This document shows positions 32,638-43,430 of a stretch of 64,000 nt of DNA, in pieces. The DNA comes from Balneola sp. EhC07 (GTDB taxonomy: Bacteria; Bacteroidota; Rhodothermia; Balneolales; Balneolaceae), in the NCBI RefSeq assembly GCF_001650905.1, contig NZ_LXYG01000017.1:434001-498000 (forward strand), given 5' to 3'. The position numbers and the translations under genes are program-made. A model generated the notes under the pieces. That model saw nothing but the letters and a program-made list of their open reading frames with translations, ran no database searches and was not told the origin of the DNA. Position 1 is the stretch's first letter, and each line of letters begins with the position of its first letter.

Positions 32638-33001
32638 ATTGTTTATTGAAATGTTTTATAAGCCCTAACACCAATCTTTGGCAAGAAGTCGCCTGTTCTC
32701 TTAATTCTTTTGCCTTTTCATTTGAGAGATATCCAAGATCTTCTGCTACATAGAGCAAACTTTTAACTTCGGCTGCAGAACTCTGAGAAAAATCAAAAAA
32801 CCTGACCGATTCTTTTCTGTGATATCTTGAAAACCCTTCCGAAATATTTGTCATTACAGACACGGAAGCTCGTTGGATTTGGTCTCGTAATCCAAAGTCT
32901 TTAGAAAAAGGTGATTCGTGAGTTGCCGAATATATTTTTTTAACTAAAGTTCTGGCCTCTTTCCAACAAGTAAGTTCTTCAAAAGCGGTTATTTTAGGCA
33001 T
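32636..33001 (-). CDS. four-helix-bundle protein (S23/IVS-type family)
   Basis: 121 residues if it starts at the ATG at 33001 (MPKITAFEELTCWKEAR is the usual opening); an earlier ATG at 33052 is possible but adds an odd basic leader. The features are typical: FEELTCWKEARTLVKKIY, FGLRDQIQRASVSVMTNISEGF, FFDFSQSSAAEVKSLLYVAEDLG and a final helix. The family was first met in intervening sequences of 23S rRNA; other copies lie at random chromosomal sites. No biochemical function is settled. The gene sits between two 27-bp direct repeats, and its own stop codon is in the left repeat, which suggests a moved unit. Confidence 0.88.
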   Translation of the reverse strand: MPKITAFEELTCWKEARTLVKKIYSATHESPFSKDFGLRDQIQRASVSVMTNISEGFSRYHRKESVRFFDFSQSSAAEVKSLLYVAEDLGYLSNEKAKELREQATSCQRLVLGLIKHFNKQ

Positions 33002-37851: not shown

Positions 37852-40680
37852 ATGCCAAGACGCGACGATATCCATAAAATTCTAATTATTGGTTCAGGAC
37901 CTATAGTAATTGGGCAAGCATGCGAATTTGATTATTCCGGGACTCAGGCTTGTCGATCCTTACAGGAAGAGGGTTATGAGATCGTATTGATCAACTCAAA
38001 TCCTGCAACGATCATGACAGATCCAATCATGGCAGATTCTATTTATATGTTGCCAATGACTACAGATTCGATCAGAGAAATTGTAGAAAAAGAAAAACCT
38101 GATGCAGTTCTGCCAACAATGGGTGGACAAACAGGATTGAATCTTTGTCGCGATCTGGAAAAAGAAAATTTCTGGGTAGAAAGAGGAATAAAGATCATTG
38201 GTGTTGACATTGATGCGGTAGAATTAACCGAAGATCGCCAGCTTTTCCGGGATAAAATGGAAGAGATCGGAATTGAGCAATGTAAAAGTAGACAGGCAGA
38301 ATCTCTGTTAGATGCCAAAGAGATCAAAGAAGAATTAGGTGGTTTGCCGATCGTGATTCGTCCATCATTTACCATGGGTGGTGCCGGTGGCGGAATTGTT
38401 TGGAACGAAGAAGATTTCGATAAAATGGTGCTTCGGGGGCTTGAAATGAGCCCGGTTCATTCTGTACTTATTGAAGAATGTATTTTTGGATGGAAAGAAT
38501 ACGAACTAGAATTACTTCGCGATTCCAACGACAATGTGGTGATCATTTGTTCTATCGAAAATATGGATCCGATGGGAGTTCACACCGGAGATTCTGTAAC
38601 GGTTGCACCAACACAGACCTTAACGGACAAGCAACTTCAGATCCTCAGAAATGCAGCTATAAAAATGATGCGCTCTATCGGGACATTTGCGGGAGGTTGT
38701 AATGTGCAGTTTGCTATGGAACCCGGAAGCGATCGGTTTGTAGCTATTGAGATCAATCCGAGAGTAAGTCGTTCATCGGCGCTGGCATCGAAAGCAACAG
38801 GGTATCCGATCGCGAAAGTGGCTACTAAATTAGCGGTAGGTTACAATCTGGATGAACTCAAAAATCAGATCACAGGAAATACTTCCGCTTGTTTTGAGCC
38901 GAGTATTGATTATGTGGTTTGCAAAGTGCCTCGTTTCAATTTTGATAAATTTGTTGGTGTTGATGAAGAGCTTTCTACACAAATGAAAGCGGTAGGCGAG
39001 GTGATGAGCATCGGTAGAAATTTCCCTGAAGCGCTAAATAAAGCGTGGCAATCAATGGAAGTTGGCAGAGACGGGCTTGGTGCTGATGGTTACGAAGAAC
39101 TGGATCGTAAGCACGTCAGCGAACGCCTGATGAAGCCGTATTGGGATCGCTCGCTTCAGATCAGAAACGCATTTAAACTTGGAGCTTCAGTAGAAGAAAT
39201 AGCAGACATTACTAAAGTTGATCCATGGTTTTTGCAGCAGATCAGATATATGGTTTCGCTTGAAAACAGAACCGAAGGACAAACTCTGGAAACCATCGAC
39301 AAAGATGATTTCTTTGAACTCAAGCAAGCAGGTTTTTCTGATACACAAATTGCCTGGTTATTGAGCAAGAGCGGTGCAGAGGTTTCGGATGAACAAGTTC
39401 GCGATCAAAGAAAGAGTTTAGGTTTAAAGCCGGTTTTCAAGTTGGTGGATACTTGTGCGGCAGAATTTCCTGCTAAAACGCCGTACTACTATTCTTCTTA
39501 TGAAGGTGAGAACGAAAGTGAAGTCACCGATCGCAAAAAAGTAGTCATTTTAGGAAGCGGTCCAAACAGGATCGGACAGGGCATTGAGTTTGATTACTCT
39601 TGTGTGCATGCTGTTTTAGCCACGAAAGAAATGGGCTACGAAGCCATCATGATAAACTGTAATCCGGAGACTGTTTCCACAGATTTTGACATTGCAGACA
39701 AGCTTTACTTTGAGCCTGTGTATTGGGAAAGAGTGTTGGATATCATCGAGCATGAAAAACCGGAAGGTGTGATCATTCAGGTTGGAGGTCAAACGGCGCT
39801 AAAACTCGGAAAGCGTTTTGTTGATGCCGGAATCAAGATCTTTGGAACCGCTTTTGAGATGATCGATTTTGCAGAAGATCGCGGACAGTTTTCGGATCTG
39901 CTTACAAGACTAGATATTCCTTTCCCGGAATATGGAACGGCCTTTGATGAAGAAGAAGCTTTAAAGATCGCAAGAAGAATCGGATATCCGGTGTTGATTC
40001 GCCCTAGTTATGTATTGGGTGGACAGGGAATGAGAATCGCGGTGAAAGAAGAAGAACTGAAACGATATGTAACCAGAATTCTGAAAACCCATCCGGAGAA
40101 TGCATTCTTAATTGATAAGTATTTAGAGCATGCCATAGAAGTGGATGTGGATTCAGTGTACGATGGAGATCAACTTCATATTTCCGGAATGATGCAGCAT
40201 ATTGAGCCTGCAGGAGTACATTCAGGTGATTCTACAGCTGTATTGCCTCCATATTCATTGAGCGAAGAAGTGATGCAAACAATTCGGGATCATCAGGAAA
40301 AAATTGCTGATGCAATGGAAATTCTTGGTTTCTTAAATGTTCAGTATGCAGTGAAGGACGAGAAAGTATATGTGCTGGAAGCGAATCCGAGAACAACCAG
40401 AACAGTTCCATTTTTGGCGAAAGCGAATCAGGTTCCTGAAGCAGCTATCGGTACAAAAGTGATGCTGGGAGCAAAACTCAAAGAATTCGATCTGAAATCC
40501 AAGCTGGATTGCTGGGCGATCAAAGAGCCTGTATTCCCATTTGATAAATTCCCGGGCGTAAAAAAGGAACTCGGTCCGGAAATGAAATCAACGGGTGAAA
40601 GTATCTACTTCGCTAAAGACTTTAAAGATGAACACTTCAGAAAACCATTTGAGTTTAAGAGTCTTTATCTGTCCAAATAA
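37852..40680 (+). CDS. carB: carbamoyl-phosphate synthase large chain, without MGS domain
   Basis: 942 residues with both ATP-grasp halves: first half IGSGPIVIGQACEFDYSGTQ near residues 13-32, PTMGGQTGLN and a RPSFTMGGAGGG loop; second half LGSGPNRIGQGIEFDYSCVH, VGGQTALKLG and RPSYVLGGQGM. E. coli CarB is 1073 residues and ends with an MGS-like allosteric domain of about 130; this protein stops after the second ATP-grasp (FEFKSLYLSK). So the nucleotide and ornithine control known for E. coli should be absent. This shortened form is also found in other Bacteroidota. Confidence 0.96.
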   Translation: MPRRDDIHKILIIGSGPIVIGQACEFDYSGTQACRSLQEEGYEIVLINSNPATIMTDPIMADSIYMLPMTTDSIREIVEKEKPDAVLPTMGGQTGLNLCRDLEKENFWVERGIKIIGVDIDAVELTEDRQLFRDKMEEIGIEQCKSRQAESLLDAKEIKEELGGLPIVIRPSFTMGGAGGGIVWNEEDFDKMVLRGLEMSPVHSVLIEECIFGWKEYELELLRDSNDNVVIICSIENMDPMGVHTGDSVTVAPTQTLTDKQLQILRNAAIKMMRSIGTFAGGCNVQFAMEPGSDRFVAIEINPRVSRSSALASKATGYPIAKVATKLAVGYNLDELKNQITGNTSACFEPSIDYVVCKVPRFNFDKFVGVDEELSTQMKAVGEVMSIGRNFPEALNKAWQSMEVGRDGLGADGYEELDRKHVSERLMKPYWDRSLQIRNAFKLGASVEEIADITKVDPWFLQQIRYMVSLENRTEGQTLETIDKDDFFELKQAGFSDTQIAWLLSKSGAEVSDEQVRDQRKSLGLKPVFKLVDTCAAEFPAKTPYYYSSYEGENESEVTDRKKVVILGSGPNRIGQGIEFDYSCVHAVLATKEMGYEAIMINCNPETVSTDFDIADKLYFEPVYWERVLDIIEHEKPEGVIIQVGGQTALKLGKRFVDAGIKIFGTAFEMIDFAEDRGQFSDLLTRLDIPFPEYGTAFDEEEALKIARRIGYPVLIRPSYVLGGQGMRIAVKEEELKRYVTRILKTHPENAFLIDKYLEHAIEVDVDSVYDGDQLHISGMMQHIEPAGVHSGDSTAVLPPYSLSEEVMQTIRDHQEKIADAMEILGFLNVQYAVKDEKVYVLEANPRTTRTVPFLAKANQVPEAAIGTKVMLGAKLKEFDLKSKLDCWAIKEPVFPFDKFPGVKKELGPEMKSTGESIYFAKDFKDEHFRKPFEFKSLYLSK

Positions 40681-40693
40681 GGATTGATGATTT

Positions 40694-41265
40694 CGTTGAT
40701 CAGGACGTGATTTTCGCTGATTAAGATCTTTTTTTGTAAGGAATCCGTCTGAATTTGTCTTACTGGATAATATGTAAGATAAATGTAAAGGTGATGATTG
40801 AAGAAAAAGAGTTTGTAAGTAAAGAGTATAAGTTCAGTAAAGAAACAGGGCTGGTATTAAAGTGTGCGATGAAAGTTCATTCAGAAATCGGGAATGGATT
40901 TCAGGAAGTAATTTATCAGAGGGCTCTTGCTGATGAAATGAATAACACTTCATTAAGGTTTGATAGGGAGAAAGAGTTTCCGATATTTTATAATGGGAAT
41001 AAAGTTGGAGCCGGAAGAGCAGACTTTGTCGTTTTCGATAAGATATTAGTTGAATTAAAAGCGATTAAAGAACTTGAGCAAAGGCACTATTCACAAATTT
41101 TAAATTATTTAAAAGCTTACAGGCTTGAAGTCGGATTATTGATTAACTTCGGTGCTCCGAGTTTAGAGTGGAAAAGAGTAATAACAAATAGAAAAGCAAT
41201 TCTTTGTGAGAATTGTCTAAATCAAAAAATCAGCGATCAAAAATCAATGCAATCAGTGATCAACG
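40694..41265. mobile_element. candidate GxxExxY cassette bounded by inverted repeats
   Basis: The left repeat (40694-40722: CGTTGATCA, then TGATTTTCGCTGATT) is mirrored at 41228-41265 (AATCAGCGATCAAAAATC, then AATCAGTGATCAACG), with 9-bp, 7-bp and 8-bp perfect blocks and short gaps. The repeats enclose exactly the GxxExxY coding segment. The right repeat codes for the linker and the first residues of RecQ. The boundaries suggest that the segment was inserted in front of recQ. Confidence 0.55.
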
Positions 41266-43430
41266 AGGCAAAAAGTATTCTTAAGGAAACCTTTGGATAT
41301 GAGGCTTTCCGACTTCAGCAAGAACAGGCAATAAATCAGGTTTTACACAAAAAAGATGCATTGGTAATAATGCCGACAGGGGGAGGGAAATCTCTTTGTT
41401 ATCAAATTCCGGCAATGATGTTTGATGGTTTGACCATCGTAATTTCTCCATTGATCTCATTGATGAAAGACCAGGTAGATCAGCTCAGAGAATATGACGT
41501 TGATGCTGTATATCTGAATAGTTCACTTCGTCCGGAAGTCTACGACTTTAACGTACGCAAAATTACTTCAGGTAAAGTGAAAATGCTCTATGTTGCTCCT
41601 GAAACATTGATGATGGAGAAGACAAGAGAGATGCTTTCTAATCTGAAAGTAGATTGTTTTACGATTGATGAAGCACACTGTATTTCAGAATGGGGACACG
41701 ATTTCCGTCCTGAATACCGACAGATCGCAGCTTTAAGAGAGGATTTTCCGGACGCAGTTTGTATGGCTTTGACCGCTACTGCAACTCCACGTGTTCAGGA
41801 AGACATCAAGAATATTCTGAAATTTGATGATTCCGAAGAATTCATTTCAAGTTTTGATCGCGACAATCTGTTTTTGAAAGTAGTAGACAAAAAAGATCCG
41901 GTTAATCAATTACTTGATTTCTTATTCACGAGAAAAAAGCAATCAGGGATCATTTATTGTTTCTCCAGACGGCAAGTTGATGAGCTCTCAGAAACGCTGG
42001 AAGATGAAGGCTATTCCGTTAAGCCATATCACGCGGGATTAAGCGATGGGATGAGAGCAGGAAATCAGCGAGCCTTTATCCGCGATGATGTGCAGATCAT
42101 TGTGGCGACGATAGCATTTGGAATGGGTATCAATAAATCGAACGTGAGATTCATTGTGCACTACGATATGCCACAGAATATAGAGTCATATTATCAGCAA
42201 ATTGGTCGTGCCGGGCGTGATGGACTTCGAGCAGATTGTTTACTTCTTTACGGTTCTTCAGATACCCAAAAGATCCAGTATTTCATCAACAAGAAAAAAG
42301 GACAGGAAAGAGAAGTTGCTGAAAAGCATTTGAAGCAGTTGAAAAAATATCTGGAGTCTTTGGAATGTCGAAGAAAACCATTGATGGCTTATTTCGGGGA
42401 GACTTACCCCAAAGATGAATGCGGGATGTGTGATAACTGTCTTTCTGTAGATGACGATGTTGAAGACCTGACCATACAAGCCCAACAGTTTTTATCAACG
42501 ATCATTCGAAGTGGAGAGAAATTTGGAGCTACTCATATTGCGGATATACTACGAGGATCAAAAGCTAAAAAGATTCTTGAGAATGAGCATGAGAAGCTTT
42601 CTACTTATGGAATTGGCTTAGAGTTTTCCAAAGATCAATGGATGCAGGTCTCAAAAATGTTACTCCGTCAGGAATATATCAGCAAAGGAGAATTTGGAGG
42701 ATTAAAACTGCAAAAGCCTGCACTTGCTGTTCTTGATGGAACTGAAAATGTGTTCGGAACTATGGACAGAAGCAAAACATCGCTTGAAGGAGAAGCGGTA
42801 GTTCGAACGTCATCAGAAATTGAAAACGAATATGACGAAGCTCTTTTCGATATACTCAGATTAAAACGAAAAGAACTTGCTGATGAACAGGATATCCCGC
42901 CATACGCTGTTTTTCCGGATACAACGTTGGTGGAAATGTCCTACTTCTATCCTCAAAGTAAAGATAGTTTAGAGCCATTGTACGGAGTGGGTTCAGCTAA
43001 AAAGGAGAAATACGGAGACTCGTTCGTTGGCGTGATTAAAAACTATGCAGCCGAACATGGTAAACAAGAAAAGAAGAAATCTATAGCCAAGCAGATCAAG
43101 AAAAAGACAGGCGGGCAAAAATTTGAGATCGTTGGCGAGGCATTTAATGCCGGTCAATCTGTTGAATTACTCGCTGAAGAACACGGGGTTAAGGATATGA
43201 CCATTCTCAAGCATTTAAAGGATTTTCTGGATGATGGAAATACTTTGAGATTGGAAGGATTACTTGAGGCTTCAGAGCTTTCGCTTAGACAAAGAGATCA
43301 GGTAATGAAATCTTTTGATAAGAAAAACCCACTTATGTTACGCCCTGTTTATGACGACTTGAATAAGAAGATCGGATACGATGAGCTTAGAGTAATGCAA
43401 CTTTATTATTTGGCTAAGGAGAAACAATAG
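40794..43430 (+). CDS. recQ: GxxExxY nuclease-like domain fused to RecQ helicase
   Basis: From the ATG at 40794 there is one open frame of 878 residues. The first 150 form a GxxExxY domain: GFQEVIY, and PD-(D/E)xK-like residues in ADFVVFDKILVELKA (Asp, Glu and Lys spaced as usual), then LLINFGAPSLEWKR. A stretch of 20 residues leads, with no stop, to a full RecQ: VLHKKDALVIMPTGGGKS (Walker A), TIDEAHCISEWGHDFRP, QQIGRAGRDG, the zinc motif with CGMCDNC, and a C-terminal HRDC/HTH region. RecQ could also start independently at Met 41247. A 3'-5' DNA helicase for repair; the added domain suggests a nuclease partner. Whether the fusion is translated is not known. Confidence 0.9.
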   Translation: MIEEKEFVSKEYKFSKETGLVLKCAMKVHSEIGNGFQEVIYQRALADEMNNTSLRFDREKEFPIFYNGNKVGAGRADFVVFDKILVELKAIKELEQRHYSQILNYLKAYRLEVGLLINFGAPSLEWKRVITNRKAILCENCLNQKISDQKSMQSVINEAKSILKETFGYEAFRLQQEQAINQVLHKKDALVIMPTGGGKSLCYQIPAMMFDGLTIVISPLISLMKDQVDQLREYDVDAVYLNSSLRPEVYDFNVRKITSGKVKMLYVAPETLMMEKTREMLSNLKVDCFTIDEAHCISEWGHDFRPEYRQIAALREDFPDAVCMALTATATPRVQEDIKNILKFDDSEEFISSFDRDNLFLKVVDKKDPVNQLLDFLFTRKKQSGIIYCFSRRQVDELSETLEDEGYSVKPYHAGLSDGMRAGNQRAFIRDDVQIIVATIAFGMGINKSNVRFIVHYDMPQNIESYYQQIGRAGRDGLRADCLLLYGSSDTQKIQYFINKKKGQEREVAEKHLKQLKKYLESLECRRKPLMAYFGETYPKDECGMCDNCLSVDDDVEDLTIQAQQFLSTIIRSGEKFGATHIADILRGSKAKKILENEHEKLSTYGIGLEFSKDQWMQVSKMLLRQEYISKGEFGGLKLQKPALAVLDGTENVFGTMDRSKTSLEGEAVVRTSSEIENEYDEALFDILRLKRKELADEQDIPPYAVFPDTTLVEMSYFYPQSKDSLEPLYGVGSAKKEKYGDSFVGVIKNYAAEHGKQEKKKSIAKQIKKKTGGQKFEIVGEAFNAGQSVELLAEEHGVKDMTILKHLKDFLDDGNTLRLEGLLEASELSLRQRDQVMKSFDKKNPLMLRPVYDDLNKKIGYDELRVMQLYYLAKEKQ

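Follow-up and report, generated by a model that had tools for sequence, protein, structure and literature searches.

A GxxExxY nuclease-like domain in frame with RecQ in Balneola, in a putative repeat-bounded element between carB and recQ

The 64,000-nucleotide stretch of Balneola sp. EhC07 analysed here (contig NZ_LXYG01000017.1, positions 434,001 to 498,000; hereafter the window) contains, downstream of carB, an open reading frame (ORF) that joins a GxxExxY nuclease domain to a RecQ helicase. In the ORF list and its translation, the frame is open throughout from TTG 40755 (or ATG 40794) to the stop at 43430, and it comprises the GxxExxY domain, a linker of about 20 residues, a complete RecQ and a C-terminal HTH_40 domain (Table 1). 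A preliminary description of this locus, made from the sequence alone, had proposed just such a fusion, and profile matches bear it out: in the TTG-started frame, TIGR04256 (GxxExxY) covers amino acids 31-143 with 135.3 bits (cut-off 35) and TIGR01389 (RecQ) covers amino acids 173-764 with 736 bits (cut-off 640.2). PF13366 also matches the nuclease part (131.1 bits, cut-off 22), and Pfam matches to DEAD, Helicase_C, RecQ_Zn_bind, RQC, HRDC and HTH_40 fall on the RecQ part. The Zn, RQC and HRDC domains of the TIGR01389 family are thus all present; what distinguishes this ORF from that family is its N-terminal nuclease extension. GxxExxY proteins, for their part, are mostly encoded in relatives by a separate ORF of about 115-160 amino acids, as the description had also stated, whereas here the domain is in frame with RecQ.

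Table 1. Features at the carB-recQ junction of the window (window coordinates; genomes are numbered G)
Feature	Coordinates	Strand	Remarks
carB (carbamoyl phosphate synthase large subunit, named by reading)	37852..40680	+	upstream neighbour
Left arm, imperfect inverted repeat	40694..40722	.	near the carB stop; decayed in G007 and G002
Promoter-like box TGTAAGGAATCCGTCTGAATTTGTCTTAC	40735..40763	+	pattern match
Candidate LexA-like site	40771..40790	-	14/20 bases of the Balneolaeota motif (PMC7739468)
GxxExxY-RecQ fused ORF	40794..43430	+	878 amino acids; ungapped in G000, G007, G004 and G002
GxxExxY (PDDEXK_3) nuclease part	40794..41227	+	profile (HMM) match 40845-41183
Right arm, imperfect inverted repeat	41228..41265	.	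spans the linker codons and the probable former recQ start
RecQ helicase (DEAD, Helicase_C, Zn, RQC, HRDC)	41271..43046	+	TIGR01389
HTH_40 domain, C-terminal	43137..43397	+	PF14493, 37 bits, amino acids 795-881

The PD-(D/E)xK core ascribed to the first domain in the preliminary description is also recovered. We aligned 48 rows, namely the window and 47 of 49 loci with a stop-free ORF of 115-150 amino acids (two were omitted), and found G33, G35, E38, Y41, D77, E87, K89, Q101 and Y105 to be invariant (residues counted from ATG 40794). The window's domain passes the GxxExxY cut-off and shares the invariant GxGxxExxY, D, ExK and QxxNY motifs of the family. An AlphaFold2 model of the nuclease part (predicted local distance difference test score, pLDDT, 87) finds its best structural match in Cas4 SSO0001, both with Foldseek (E 1.5e-4, template modelling score, TM, 0.52) and with VIA-align (Z 10.7, root mean square deviation 8.7 over 116 residues). 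MGME1, LHK-Exo, lambda exonuclease, RecE and AddAB follow in Foldseek, Dna2 is likewise among the fold matches, and restriction enzymes follow in VIA-align (BpuSI, Z 8.2), where matches with Z below 8 indicate a shared restriction-endonuclease-like fold only. The predicted fold and the D..ExK..QxxxY arrangement are those of Cas4, MGME1 and lambda exonuclease-type nucleases; identity to Cas4 SSO0001, the closest match, is 17%. It is likely, on the strength of the predicted fold, that GxxExxY proteins belong to a Cas4/lambda-exonuclease-like structural class. Weak sequence matches in the PDB to one LAGLIDADG protein (E 0.0045) were judged a chance resemblance.

We compared 29 carB-recQ junctions of Balneolaceae, consisting of known GxxExxY-recQ neighbours and chosen others with both genes, so that the counts do not measure prevalence. 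The C-terminal part of the carB translation is 76-100% identical in relatives by tblastn. GxxExxY lies between the two genes, intact or broken, at 16 of these junctions, usually as a gene of its own, and three further genera of the family carry a separate copy at the equivalent place; the broken copies are those of G001 (half deleted) and G040 (interrupted by stops). By our sorting nine junctions have no element, with arm-like remains visible in G041 and G003. The junction of G020 holds a relic without ORF, and that of G018 an ORF-less hairpin with a box beside it. The empty site that the preliminary description expected in some relative exists in G005, of the same genus, where 15 nucleotides separate the carB stop from the recQ ATG. 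In G051 and G057 (L147, L148), a Y1-transposase-like gene, identified by reading, replaces GxxExxY at recQ, and the right arm and box remain. In G012 (L014), the carB 3' end, left arm and box are duplicated in tandem before GxxExxY.

Among the matches listed from 128 genomes of the order, only G000, G007, G004 and G002 are stop-free through both domains, and the catalytic residues are complete in all four species. G052 and G050 have the gene order and frame of the fused species and yet retain one and two stops, respectively, so that the fusion fits a stop codon having disappeared in a single sublineage of Balneola. In G001, left arm, box and N-terminal half of the nuclease are gone, whereas RecQ is kept; no in-frame ATG precedes that of the right arm, although a single TTG does.

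Inverted repeats were originally said to enclose the first domain exactly. The two arms do lie at its borders, but they are imperfect, gapped and weak when taken alone: the left arm (29 bases) and the reverse complement of the right arm (38 bases) share 26 identical bases with 11 gap columns, and an ungapped repeat finder did not report the pair 40694-40722/41228-41265. The window's right arm ranks third of 15, ties counted, as a partner for its left arm. Across 11 recQ-linked lineages, own arms nevertheless beat swapped ones, with a summed score of 410 vs a permuted mean of 310 and a permuted maximum of 400 (p 5e-5). As had been proposed, the linker and the initial residues of RecQ are encoded by the right arm, which has two possible starts inside it, ATG 41247 and the in-frame GTG 41256; in species with separate genes this arm extends up to the probable start codon of recQ, in many cases GTG (..CTGTGATCAAAGAAGC). 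Positions 41219-41293 show 100% nucleotide identity across the four fused species. In two of these, G007 and G002, the left arm is decayed (by eye, and with low arm scores), which comes close to the fused gene without repeats that the preliminary description had named as evidence against its own proposal. The element has no transposase of its own, the only long ORF between the arms being the GxxExxY part, and a comparison of 40500-41400 with Rfam gave no family up to E 1.

Arms of this kind recur around GxxExxY genes elsewhere. From the best 80 of 301 GxxExxY loci we tested 71, all outside Balneola and some with internal stops, after omitting four Balneola recQ loci and five with short flanks or long ORFs; 300 nucleotides upstream were aligned to the reverse complement of 300 nucleotides downstream. 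The mean score was 42.4, vs 23.7 in a control set of 248 further ORFs from these loci, and 31 of the 71 exceeded the control 99% point (41 the 95% point). Arms also match their own partners: the summed score of 3008 compares with a permuted mean of 1890 and a maximum of 2263 in 20,000 permutations, and the own partner ranks first at 17 loci. Units such as CACNGATT recur, by eye, every 9-11 bases or so. GxxExxY genes across many phyla thus tend toward flanking quasi-periodic inverted repeats; terminal repeats mark the class as a whole, and only weakly the window's locus by itself. The window's genome (3.62 Mb) has five GxxExxY genes. A second of these copies lies at a junction that is clean and empty in G005, G003 and G006, with stop and start overlapping or 2-3 bases apart, and that holds a decayed version in G004; a third site is occupied in G007 by a hairpin that lacks the gene.

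Genes of the S23 type (TIGR02436), which encode four-helix-bundle proteins and which we take to be the family of rRNA intervening sequences, number 12 in the window's genome, with one in the window itself (32648-32968, minus strand). They too have quasi-periodic inverted repeats on both sides, each element with a repeat sequence of its own (L190-L219). In a test of 25 of 30 loci plus the window copy (four short-flank loci and L218 were omitted), 17 of 26 scored over the 99% shuffle line.

Is the association of GxxExxY with recQ recent? In a GxxExxY tree of 43 rows, all 14 recQ-linked copies fall inside a group of 15 (support 97/92), the remaining member being a G062 copy from another place, and the four other copies of the window's genome lie outside this recQ-linked group. 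On a RecQ tree of 47 rows, the presence of GxxExxY is patchy and requires 11 changes, of which well-supported branches impose 8; 36 of 500 label shuffles did equally well. Such a pattern implies either one old arrival followed by about ten losses or a site-specific lineage that returned repeatedly; the second option is hinted at by two GxxExxY groups inside one genus. Homing genes, too, are characterised by scattered occurrence at a single conserved site.

Synonymous differences among G007, G004 and G002 amount to 0.15-0.22 in GxxExxY, 0.52-0.53 in recQ and 0.32-0.38 in carB. The deficit of GxxExxY relative to recQ is significant (Fisher 8e-8 to 9e-11), and for the second half of the nuclease plus linker the values fall to 0.09 and 0.00. 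This low divergence indicates that the nuclease stretch was exchanged among the three later than its flanks. All 20 linker codons are invariant across the four fused species, the recQ genes of which differ at up to 0.56 of synonymous sites; an identical linker region fits a RecQ translation start kept in the right arm, a recent exchange, or both. Purifying selection acts on the nuclease part: in six pairs, its ratio of nonsynonymous to synonymous change (dN/dS) is 0.14-0.50, compared with 0.017-0.026 for RecQ, or about 5 to 22 times the RecQ value.

The box in front of the ORF conforms to the pattern TGTAAGGA-N14-24-TCTWAC. It occurs 26 times in G000 (3 in a reversed control) and 26 times in G010 (1 in the control), and 12-31 times in each of eight further genomes, scanned with N15-20 (control 0-1). 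We read 49 of 52 box sites, omitting two at recQ and merging one near a contig end with a similar one; at 44 of the 49 an ORF starts 0-208 nucleotides after the box. At recQ the box tracks the element, being present at 14 of 16 junctions with GxxExxY and at none of nine without element (Fisher 2.7e-5; not counted in the test are four box-bearing junctions that hold a relic, a hairpin or a gene of the Y1 type). We considered that it might simply be the native recQ promoter, as its position beside the ORF-less hairpin of G018 would allow; however, G003 and G005 have no box at recQ despite 16 and 15 copies elsewhere.

Genes for SSB, YifB and RadC follow the box in both G000 and G010, among 30 ORFs scanned, and in G010 it also precedes those for RecA, RecF, RecJ, ComEC and a second RecQ (partial, below cut-off). 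The small genes behind it comprise four of the TIGR02436 type, two GIY-YIG, one IS200 and two RAYT genes (one below cut-off). Thirty sites from the eight further genomes, where some gene labels were given by reading, include 6 S23-type genes, 3 SSB, 2 integrases, 5 others and 3 without ORF, as well as RecA, YifB, RadC, RAYT, IS200, GIY-YIG and one GxxExxY. The layout seen at recQ recurs at recN, where in six of six genomes a box lies 447-732 nucleotides upstream with a small ORF in between (L306-L311), of the TIGR02436 type in at least four of the six and of another kind in G013. Box-bearing host genes have no flanking arms (seven tested, scores 17-26), and box-bearing element genes often, though not always, do. 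Away from recQ, GxxExxY is seldom linked to the box (2 of 19 copies).

Several smaller observations concern the same box. A repeat-like stretch reaches the recN start codon in G000 and G010. An integron integrase (TIGR02249, 444 bits) lies behind the box in G010 (L229), and integrase-like matches occur in G013 and G053 too. One more GxxExxY-like gene, away from recQ, starts 27 nucleotides behind a box in G013 (L298, C2:178385-178415). Near-identical GIY-YIG genes (L224, L254, L257) have the box 5 nucleotides ahead of the start codon, and the same type of box is found at contig ends of G000 (C2, C15, C18, C20), as for a recent repeat family.

What programme might the box belong to? ComEC, YifB (presumably ComM), SSB, RadC, RecA, RecF, RecJ and the integron integrase would all suit classical competence. 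On the other hand, dprA has no box within 1500 nucleotides upstream in any of six genomes, while recN has one in all six. According to PMC4630621, radC is induced in competence in several bacteria. Also against classical competence, recN, recA, ssb, recQ and radC are named in Bacteroidetes SOS networks (PMC8565304). The box itself differs from the LexA motif published for Balneolaeota, TTACACATATTTTWTACATA (PMC7739468). Directly behind it, however, lies a candidate LexA-like site, which matches this motif at 14 of 20 bases in the window, at 15 of 20 in G007, G004, G002 and G020, and at 11-13 in other genera. The window contains 24 matches of the 14-of-20 kind among 127,962 20-mers, so that about 0.04 would be expected in 40681-40800. 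Box loci overall lack LexA-like sites, the mean best match being 12.8/20 vs 12.6 in shuffled sequence (52 sites). The recQ locus of Balneola may nonetheless be under SOS control.

Taking these observations together, we propose that a small, arm-bounded GxxExxY nuclease element has long resided between carB and recQ of Balneolaceae, in the recQ leader, and was fused to recQ by loss of a stop codon, so that the fusion and RecQ alone are probably both made; we give this reading a probability of about 0.6. The box would drive a single transcript for nuclease and RecQ. In the four fused species the frame runs through the right arm into RecQ: translation from ATG 40794 would yield a nuclease-helicase of about 101 kDa, and initiation inside this arm, at ATG 41247 or GTG 41256, would still yield an ordinary RecQ, of about 83 kDa from ATG 41247. 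The element would persist by recombination-assisted, homing-like copying into the same site without a transposase of its own, and the targets of its nuclease may be DNA ends or hairpins that the arms form. That the element spreads to this site through recombination is likely, although proof would be needed.

Several results weigh against this proposal. The window's arm pair is weak on its own when compared with local shuffles (p 0.018-0.025), and with the left arm decayed in two fused relatives the locus does not demonstrate a living element. Even in the wider sample, 40 of the 71 GxxExxY loci lie below the control 99% line (30 below the 95% line). Comparison of the second copy by eye with G003, G005 and G006 revealed no clear target duplication, nor was transposition observed in any case, and the recQ site is too old for such a duplication to be read. 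Pairs involving the window's own species show no trough in synonymous divergence (0.34-0.39). The approximately unbiased (AU) test rejects neither common descent of the two GxxExxY groups of one genus (p 0.112) nor an exclusive clade of recQ-linked copies (p 0.294); vertical inheritance accompanied by some ten losses would fit equally, so that homing between genera stays a hypothesis.

How do other explanations fare? The preliminary description saw here the insertion of a small mobile gene in front of recQ; the reading weighed at this point takes that insertion as recent and the frame as kept by chance. The repeats on both sides, the empty site of G005 and the empty sites that relatives show for another GxxExxY copy would all suit it. 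Yet the carB-GxxExxY-recQ order is shared by three other genera, the recQ-linked copies cluster, and ORF-less arm or box relics remain at the recQ site in G020 and G018; we reject a recent insertion, which appears very improbable. The fusion could instead be an accident of the reading frame, in which drift removed the stop, the fused protein is scarce and translation of RecQ begins within the right arm. The retention of recQ in G001 with half of the nuclease deleted, the conservation of the right arm with its ATG and GTG above any other stretch, and the much higher dN/dS of the nuclease part all point this way. An 878-codon frame that stays open and ungapped in four species, with recQ synonymous differences of up to 0.56, and a nuclease dN/dS still of 0.14-0.50 speak against it, and we regard such an accident as rather unlikely.

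At the opposite extreme, the fused protein may have been selected as a new end-resection enzyme. WRN is an exonuclease-RecQ protein with a DnaQ-type exonuclease, and Dna2 is a Cas4-like nuclease-helicase whose helicase belongs to a superfamily other than that of RecQ; in both, as in the fused ORF, the nuclease precedes the helicase in one chain. By this analogy, the intact catalytic residues of the four fused species, the kept frame and the presence of Cas4, MGME1, AddAB and Dna2 among the fold matches would be expected. Relatives manage with separate genes, however, G001 has deleted half of the nuclease, and selection on this part is far weaker than on RecQ, so that we consider a selected enzyme unlikely. 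We rate about equally, but keep as a serious competitor of our proposal, the possibility that the arms act in RNA, as a leader hairpin cut or trimmed from the recQ message in the way of 23S rRNA intervening sequences, so that the start codon of recQ would directly follow the stem; the Coxiella sequence with its S23 ORF is the comparison case (PMC4990558). Those sequences resemble the recQ-locus element in having a small ORF between inverted repeats, and differ from it in that the element sits between carB and recQ and encodes a nuclease. The match of arms to their own partners over 71 loci, the extension of the right arm in relatives as far as the start codon of recQ, the like arms of S23-type genes (17 of 26) and the presence of such genes between box and recN in at least four of six genomes would be consistent with a role in RNA. 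The arms, however, are imperfect and gapped, the left one is decayed in G007 and G002 with the gene retained, and Rfam offers no match.

It is conceivable, and we suggest it tentatively, that GxxExxY, S23-type, some GIY-YIG and Y1-transposase genes represent one undescribed class of small elements, each with a single gene, co-changing quasi-periodic arms and a preference for stop/start junctions. The Balneolaceae copies between box and recQ or recN would then be tied to a recombination and DNA-uptake programme, and the fusion would be an element captured by its host. REP/RAYT and IS200 elements likewise combine a small gene with hairpin ends; unlike them, the window's element has no Y1 transposase.

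In the literature searched, which leaves out most subscription journals, neither a GxxExxY-RecQ fusion nor repeats flanking GxxExxY genes are described in any paper that we found, and there was almost nothing on GxxExxY proteins, which two papers mention in passing. The fusion is new as a variant; both component families were already known. GxxExxY proteins gain a likely structural class, a repeat-bounded context across phyla and a natural fusion to a helicase, all of which makes their biochemistry testable. In Balneolaceae, moreover, a group of genes for recombination and DNA uptake has the box in common with several kinds of small genes of mobile type.

GxxExxY had no match as phage cargo and is not common as plasmid cargo (8 of 72,556 records, each with less than 60% identity). 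A second Pfam domain was not found in five longer-than-usual GxxExxY ORFs scanned, two of them above 200 amino acids. No PADLOC model matches the nuclease part at E 0.01; the models that match the RecQ part are those of DpdF-type helicases.

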